From Afipia sp. (lineage in GTDB: Bacteria; Pseudomonadota; Alphaproteobacteria; Rhizobiales; Xanthobacteraceae), in contig JANQAK010000003.1 in assembly GCA_024707075.1 (NCBI GenBank), forward strand, positions 1 through 64,000: a stretch of DNA of 64,000 bases. The letters run 5' to 3'. Shown here piece by piece: positions 35,723-45,797 of this stretch. Each line of letters begins with the position of its first letter. The stretch's first letter is position 1. Both the position numbers and the translations under genes were made by a program. The notes under the pieces were generated by a model. That model did no database searches and had not been told where the DNA came from. It worked only from the letters and a program-made list of their open reading frames with translations.

Positions 35723-37162
35723 TTACGCTCCGGACGCCTGATCTTGCAGGCGTTCCAGGCAGGTTTGCCGCCCCAGCACGGCCAGAACGTCGAAGATGCC
35801 GGGCGAGGTGGTCCGGCCGGTCAAAGCGACACGTAACGGCTGCGCGATCGCCCCGAGCTTGAGGTTATTTTGCTCCGCGAAACTGCGCATCGCGGCTTCG
35901 GTGGTGGCAGCGGCCCAGGGCGTGACCGGCTCCAGCGCGGCCCGGAGTTTCCCGATCAGTTGCCGCGTCTCAGGCGTCAGCACCGCCGCCGCTTTCGGTT
36001 CGAGCGCGAGCGGACGCTCGGCAAAAATGAACTGCGCGCTGTCGATCAGTTCGATCAGCGTTTTGGCGCGTTCTTTCAGGCCCGGCATGGCGGCCAGCAG
36101 TTGCGCGCGGTTGGTATCATTTAGCTTGCTGCGGATATCGGCCCCGCCGGGAACGAATTGCAGCACATCCTCGAAGCTCGCCAGCAGCGCCTTGTCGTCG
36201 GCATTGCGGATATAGTGGCCGTTGAGGTTTTCGAGCTTGGCGAAATCGAACCGCGCCGCCGAGCGGCCGATGGCCGGCAGGTCGAATTCCTTAATCATCT
36301 CCTCGGTGGAGAAAATCTCCTGATCGCCGTGGCTCCAGCCGAGCCTCACGAGATAGTTACGCAGCGCCTCGGGCAGGTAGCCCATGGCGCGATAAGCATC
36401 GACGCCAAGGGCGCCGTGGCGCTTCGACAGCTTCGATCCGTCCGGGCCGTGGATCAAAGGAATGTGAGACATCACCGGCACGTCCCAGCCGAGCGCATCG
36501 TAAATATGTTTCTGGCGCGCGGCGTTGATGAGGTGGTCGTCGCCGCGAATGACATGGGTGATCTCCATGTCGTGATCGTCGACCACCACCGCCAGCATGT
36601 AGGTCGGGTTGCCGTCCGAGCGCAGCAGCACGAGGTCGTCGAAGTTCTCGTTTTGCCAGACCACGCGGCCCTGCACCTGATCCTCGATCACGGTCTCGCC
36701 GGTCTGCGGGGCGCGCAGCCGGATCACTGGCTTGACGCCGGGCGGGGCTTCGGACGGATCGCGGTCGCGCCAGCGTCCGTCATAGCGCATGGCGCGGCCT
36801 TCGGCCTTGGCAGCCTCACGCATTTGCGTCAGTTCCTCGGCCGATGCGTAGCAGTAGTAGGCCTTGCCGGCGGCGAGAAGCTGCTCGGCAACCTCCCGGT
36901 GCCGGGCGGCGCGGGTGAACTGATAGACCGTCTCGCCGTCCCATTCGATGCCGAGCCATTTCAGGCCGTCGAGAATGGCGTCGATGGCGGCGTCGGTGGA
37001 GCGCTCGCGATCGGTATCCTCGATCCGCAGCAGCATCTTCCCGCCGCGCCCGCGCGCATAGAGCCAGTTGAACAGGGCGGTGCGCGCCCCGCCGATATGC
37101 AGGAAGCCGGTGGGCGAGGGCGCGAAGCGGGTGACGACGGGTTTGGTCATGGTGGCGGTCAA
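35723..37162 (-). CDS. gltX: Glutamate--tRNA ligase
   Basis: [38 protein letters not shown]. Confidence 0.96.
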
Positions 37163-37383
37163 TGGTCCCGGGATTGTTACCGGCGGGCGTGTATCACAAC
37201 GCTATCGGACTGTCTCAGAACGAATTGAGCAGGGTTATCGCCAGCCTTACGAGCCGGTGGGGGAACCTGCGTTGTCCGGCGGAGGGCGCGGAAGGCTGTT
37301 TTGACCCGGAAGGCGCGCGGCCGGAAAGCGCGCGGTACCCTCGCACAGGTCTTGGCGCGGCCTCTTGGATTTGGCACATAGGC

Positions 37384-37458
37384 CCAGTGTCCTGAATCCG
37401 AAGTTCGCCTCATTTTCCAGCACGTTCGTAGCGAACTTCGGATTCTAAAGGACACTGG
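37384..37458 (-). repeat. Hairpin element 1 (reverse orientation)
   Basis: CCAGTGTCCTGAATCCGAAGTTCGC ... GCGAACTTCGGATTCtaaAGGACACTGG, 25 bp arms, 3 nt bulge, 22 nt loop. Confidence 0.9.
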
Positions 37459-37469
37459 AAGTTGTGATT

Positions 37470-37545
37470 CCAGTGTGGCGTCAGTTCGCAAGTCCGCAAA
37501 GGAACGTGCTGCCAAATGGCGCGGACTTGCGAACTGCCACACTGG
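37470..37545 (+). repeat. Hairpin element 2 (forward orientation), same family as element 1
   Basis: CCAGTGTGGcgtCAGTTCGCAAGTCCGC ... GCGGACTTGCGAACTGCCACACTGG, 25 bp arms, 3 nt bulge, 23 nt loop. Confidence 0.9.
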
Positions 37546-37560
37546 CTTGAAAGGGTGAAA

Positions 37561-39235
<1,675 letters not shown>

Positions 39236-45713: not shown

Positions 45714-45797
45714 CGTCATTGCGAGGAGCACTTGCGACGAAGCAATCCAGTGCTGCTTTTTTAAGAGTGGATTGCTTCGCTTCGCTCGCAATGACGG
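45714..45797. repeat. Dispersed palindromic (REP-like) element, family A copy 2
   Basis: CGTCATTGCGAGGAGCACTTGCGACGAAGCAATCCAG...TGGATTGCTTCGCTTCGCTCGCAATGACGG. Confidence 0.9.

Follow-up and report, generated by a model that had tools for sequence, protein, structure and literature searches.

A dispersed 162-bp element of two inverted, bulged hairpins upstream of glnS in Afipia is probably a non-autonomous mobile DNA element

We analysed a window of 64,000 nucleotides from Afipia sp. (contig JANQAK010000003.1, forward strand), in which two hairpins of 75 and 76 nt lie 11 nt apart between the divergent genes gltX and glnS. Positions, folding and Pfam all agreed with this arrangement, which had been described in an initial annotation made from the sequence alone. 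The limits of the whole element were set by a full-length covariance model match (168.1 bits), alignment boundaries and empty sites, those of the hairpins by sequence, fold and pair counts, and that of the spacer by sequence. GltX was assigned by Pfam, and glnS by Pfam (tRNA-synt_1c at 37652-39235) together with the sequence of relatives. The features are as follows:

35723..37162, minus strand: gltX, the divergent neighbour
37384..37545, plus strand: whole element (hairpin 1, 11-nt spacer, hairpin 2)
37384..37387, plus strand: left outer tetramer CCAG (family consensus CTAG)
37384..37458, plus strand: hairpin 1 (75 nt)
37384-37393/37449-37458: hairpin 1 outer stem
37394-37408/37431-37445: hairpin 1 inner stem
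37409-37430: hairpin 1 loop
37446-37448: hairpin 1 bulge, TAA, in the 3' arm
37459..37469, plus strand: AT-rich spacer AAGTTGTGATT (11 nt)
37470..37545, plus strand: hairpin 2 (76 nt)
37470-37479/37536-37545: hairpin 2 outer stem
about 37480-37482: hairpin 2 bulge of 3 nt, GTC (or CGT), in the 5' arm
up to 37497, pairing with 37521-37536: hairpin 2 inner stem
37498-37520: hairpin 2 loop
37542..37545, plus strand: right outer tetramer CTGG (family consensus CTAG)
37561..39235, plus strand: glnS

Both hairpins were found to be parts of one repeated element of 162 bp, short and without coding capacity, which is more than a reading of the single window could reveal. The hairpins are related to each other at about 70% as inverted copies, perfect identity of the two ends being limited to CTAGTGT, and their inner stems are without mismatch over 15 bp in one hairpin and 16 bp in the other. 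The inverted relation of the hairpins and the perfect pairing of their arms had been claimed in the initial annotation, as had the 3-nt bulges and the loop motif GAACGTGCTG..AAATG shared by both hairpins, and all were confirmed. The minimum free energy of 37370-37560 was -96.3, against a mean of -58.1 for shuffled sequences (z = -8.4), and none of 200 shuffles folded as well. In the family consensus hairpin 1 reads CTAGTGTCCYGAATCCGAAGTTCGC-loop-GCGAACTTCGGATTC-RAA-AGGACACTAG and is followed, after the AT-rich spacer, by hairpin 2 as CTAGTGTGGT-TTT-GGTTCGCAAGTCCGC-loop-and back. The spacer was also present in the aligned full copies, a GCNGC core was retained in both loops and the bulges were kept in most copies, while the sequence of hairpin 2 varied among subfamilies with its shape constant.

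The ATG of glnS lies 15 nt downstream of the element. An extra A near 37570 (ATGACTGACAGAATCGG, compared with ATGACTGACGAATCGG in relatives) puts the ATG at 37561 out of frame with the body of the gene, and represents either a sequencing error or a shifted start. Of the 25 aligned genomes, just 4 had the element upstream of glnS; another, from a more distant congener (G044, locus L205), carried a different array there, with several such hairpins in tandem. The empty tetramer at this site in relatives was CCAA or CCAG, matching the left end, CCAG.

We found the element to be widespread in many related soil bacteria. BLAST with the 162-bp stretch gave 38 places in its own genome, and a covariance model built from 94 copies gave about 60 distinct copies there, most of them matched on both strands because the element is nearly an inverted repeat. 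All 25 genomes searched from the window's own genus contained it by BLAST, which at its sensitivity gave no match in 16 genomes of other families (0/16). With the covariance model, the kind of search that the initial annotation had called for, we obtained matches in 31 genomes out of 199 from the order, representing 17 of 96 genera, and many of the positive genomes had at least 14 scored copies each. Records of the hairpin 1 stem came, among others, from Afipia, Bradyrhizobium, Nitrobacter, Rhodopseudomonas, Pseudorhodoplanes, Rhodoplanes and Aestuariivirga; a search with the exact spacer pattern gave no match in the genome collection. Bradyrhizobium sp. LHD-71 contained a near-identical, young burst of one subfamily (loci L062, L075, L136, L137, L153, L167, L169 and others), with CTAG at nearly all outer ends.

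Aligned copies had sharp ends at CTAG-type tetramers, with TGT..ACA next to them, and their flanks were unrelated. The copies adjoined unrelated genes, and we detected no flanking preference and no duplication of the flanks beyond the 4 bp. Empty sites in relatives, which the initial annotation had proposed to look for, were frequent: in 42 of 61 clean comparisons both flanks were kept at the unoccupied orthologous site, with exactly 4 bp between them in place of the element. Over 14 sites the empty tetramer matched CTAG at a mean of 2.29 of 4 positions, compared with a mean of 0.99 and a maximum of 1.5 at 64 control offsets. At two loci the empty sites of relatives read CTAG (5/5) and CTAG or TTAG (6/6). 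At a third they read CTGG (5/5), and CTGG also stands at either end of the copy at this locus, with CCAG in both inner arms. At other loci the empty tetramer matched one side only, or neither. Left and right tetramers often differed, and the z for their direct identity was only 3.1. The simplest reading is that a 4-bp target duplication would have drifted later, unless homogenisation with the inner arms altered it. At the L042 site one genome (G005, locus L372) has a remnant of 48 bp whose outer ends are intact; it represents an internal deletion, showing that the element was formerly present at that site.

The inner arms also matched unusual outer tetramers (CTGA/TCAG, CCAA/TTGG, CTGG/CCAG, CGAG/CTCG). 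Because copies with CTGG, CCAA, CTGA or TCAG outside carry the matching complement inside, we considered that the hairpin feet might read the target, the inner arm pairing with the 4-bp flank so as to choose the site, or the tetramer being copied into the arm after insertion. On present evidence we regard this as improbable.

Covariation was examined in 94 copies against a structure named in advance. Of the stem cells, 96.6% paired, and 329 carried double changes, compared with 75.5 in shuffles; when partners were shifted in slide controls, just 27-39% paired. Pairing within each hairpin is thus kept across subfamilies at the level of DNA. The invariance of the inner stem of hairpin 1 is partly inflated by ascertainment, since exact stems were used as the search query. 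The loops of hairpins 1 and 2 did not covary (mean z -0.07), so a kissing-loop coupling between them was rejected, and the outer arms of the two hairpins showed at most weak coupling, at two positions. The initial annotation would have been undermined by a lack of further copies or by arms diverging without compensation; copies were abundant, and across the family the arms covaried.

Resident copies behaved differently from the family as a whole. In 15 comparisons of orthologous copies, some sharing a sequence, we counted 52 single uncompensated stem changes and 8 compensated double changes. The family structure therefore appears to be kept by mobility or by arm-to-arm copying rather than by local function. 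Covariation had been put forward in the initial annotation as a sign of selection on structure; the arms do covary across the family, but this does not serve as proof of such selection at the glnS locus, given these counts and the alternative of template switching (PMC8794818). Stems changed slightly less than loops in 11 non-overlapping pairs (4.3% versus 6.5%, p = 0.04), and there may thus be some constraint at the local level.

In a tree of 168 elements, the copies found at glnS in four species grouped together as a clade with no other member (support 0.91), and sites L036 and L034 behaved in the same way; sites L021, L024, L039 and L040 gave no clean clades. On a species tree based on one locus, a single gain would require 9 losses at glnS, 5 at L036 and 7 at L034, the minimum numbers of changes of any kind being 3, 4 and 2, respectively. 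Patchy occupancy despite the single glnS clade implies that copies are often excised precisely, or that recombination often replaces the locus, and with loss so frequent some empty tetramers may be excised sites. Most likely the glnS copy is an old insertion of a mobile sequence rather than a switch for the gene.

We looked for the mobilising enzyme beside the copies and in the host genomes. No recurrent transposase was recognised among the neighbours, the clusters corresponding to the surroundings of glnS and to further ORF families that recur. The IS200/RAYT-like transposase suggested in the initial annotation was mostly absent: Y1_Tnp (PF01797) occurred in just 3 of the 25 genomes of the genus, the other 22 lacking it, was found in 2 of 4 further host genomes (one of them already among the 3), and was missing from all 12 copy-rich genomes of other families. 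None of the fetched Y1 loci carried the element. In the genome of the window a Y1_Tnp gene of IS200/RAYT type (G000:C5:178906-179265; L170, L178, L180) is in three pieces, apparently frame-broken, and unlinked to the element. In Bradyrhizobium sp. LHD-71 an intact IS481 transposase gene (L385, 1197-2422) with CTAG on both sides adjoins a full copy of the element. As a general partner IS481 was rejected: true IS481 scored above the cut-off in a single genome of the 10 tested, and there was no match in the copy-rich genome G112. By inspection, the ends of the element have little in common with those of the LHD-71 IS481 beyond TGT, and no autonomous parent with matching ends was found among the neighbours or the Y1 and IS481 loci.

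Taken together, the element is dispersed, has sharp ends and sits at a CTAG-like site of 4 bp, and many orthologous sites lack it. We conclude, with a probability of about 0.86, that it is a non-autonomous mobile DNA element of the MITE/REPIN-like kind, approximately 162 bp long, in which two bulged hairpins of 75 bp are inverted relative to each other. A non-autonomous mobile hairpin had been one of the possibilities named in the initial annotation, and it is supported by the dispersal and sharp ends of the copies, by the empty sites and by the covariation. Against it stand the failure to find a mobilising enzyme or an autonomous relative, and the fact that no transposition event was observed. 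An enzyme supplied in trans may recognise the hairpin ends (the bulge and the GCNGC loop cores) as a cruciform or as single-stranded DNA. Insertion would take place at CTAG-like tetramers, probably duplicating them, and spread would be limited to well-folded copies. Template switching may also homogenise the arms, and copies could be lost precisely, for example by slippage between the flanking tetramers.

Several other explanations were weighed against these data. A structured RNA, or a regulatory leader or attenuator of glnS or gltX, would account for the position 15 nt upstream of glnS and for the very stable fold, but copies lie beside unrelated genes, only the 4 genomes mentioned above have this element at glnS, and orthologues change mostly without compensation. 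Among mismatches G-T (46) and A-C (60) were equally rare; G-T being no commoner than A-C, no strand is favoured, the opposite of what a one-strand RNA helix would give, and Rfam had no match for the element. The RNA element offered by the initial annotation is therefore hardly credible. A REPIN, that is two inverted REP hairpins moved by a RAYT (Y1 HUH) transposase of the same genome, has the same layout of two bulged inverted hairpins and a spacer, many diverged copies per genome, and sites depleted within long open frames, as found here (20/31 versus 0.87 in controls). The distribution of PF01797, Y1 loci devoid of the element, hairpins of 75 bp instead of 20-40 and CTAG in place of GTAG or CGTC all speak against it, and we consider it very unlikely.

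Closer to the data is a classical MITE of a DDE insertion sequence (IS481- or IS5-like), with a 4-bp CTAG-like duplication and terminal repeats that are palindromic only incidentally. The CTAG-like site, the adjoining TGT..ACA, the inverted halves and the intact CTAG-bounded IS481 gene in the young-burst genome all fit, and this is a real possibility, if at somewhat less than even odds; the rarity of IS481 among the genomes and the dissimilar ends count against it, as does a structure that spans the whole element and not its ends alone. Within the reading as a mobile element, covariation might come mainly from mutation, by template switching between the arms, and not from selection for foldable mobile DNA. 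Such switching is documented as a source of compensated changes between hairpin arms (PMC8794818, PMC7202029). Inner arms that match unusual outer tetramers and the rarity of G-T intermediates are in keeping with it, but if it were the main source, compensated changes should be frequent in resident copies, where 52 of 60 were single, and it would erase the bulges that most copies retain. We think this rather unlikely as the main source.

Covariation across the family combined with decay in place separates a structure needed to move from one useful where it sits, and the orthologous filled and empty sites make the source of hairpin covariation directly testable. Covariation of a DNA hairpin alone is no evidence for a functional RNA. 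The burst in LHD-71 is the best place to look for an active mover.

We compared the element with known systems. The RIME of Rhizobium/Sinorhizobium, reportedly described by Osteras et al. in 1995, is said to be an intergenic repeat of about 108 bp with two large palindromes, found in Hyphomicrobiales; compared by description only, it is alike as an intergenic palindromic repeat of this order and differs in length. REPINs and BIMEs with RAYT (TnpA-REP) are also short, gene-less repeats with two bulged inverted hairpins and many diverged copies, but here the hairpins are of 75 bp, the ends are of CTAG type, the occupied site is 4 bp and most hosts have no Y1 transposase. REPs are defined as repeats of 20-40 bp with a GTAG or CGTC tag (PMC3733652); the element has neither this size and tag nor a RAYT linked to it, and, with no Y1/RAYT in the 12 copy-rich genomes, its assignment to the REPINs is not established. 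Elsewhere in the window, 2767-2846 and 45714-45797 are near-identical copies of a CGTCATTGCGAGGAGC...GCGACGAAGCAATCCAG repeat that resembles a REP of the CGTC type. Br-REP1 and Br-REP2 of Bradyrhizobium are palindromic intergenic repeats from the same families of hosts, and a larger element that includes Br-REP2 extends to Nitrobacter, Oligotropha and Afipia (PMC5082802). Identity with them was rejected by inspection, as the printed consensus sequences (CCGGAATCTCGAGATTCCGG; CGAGATTCCGGGTTCGG...) are unlike the stems of the element (PMC5082802). Rfam at E up to 1 returned only a chance match to mir-2240, and the full stem sequence was not found in the open-access literature searched; provisionally, the element is apparently undescribed. 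IS481 and IS5 elements habitually target a CTAG-like 4-bp site. MITEs of this type resemble the element in being non-autonomous, in that site and in their inverted halves; unlike them, it has no parent IS with matching ends among those found, and its whole body is hairpin. It is short, non-coding, dispersed and sharp-ended as MITEs are and, with its parent missing, a MITE is the best fit among the known systems.
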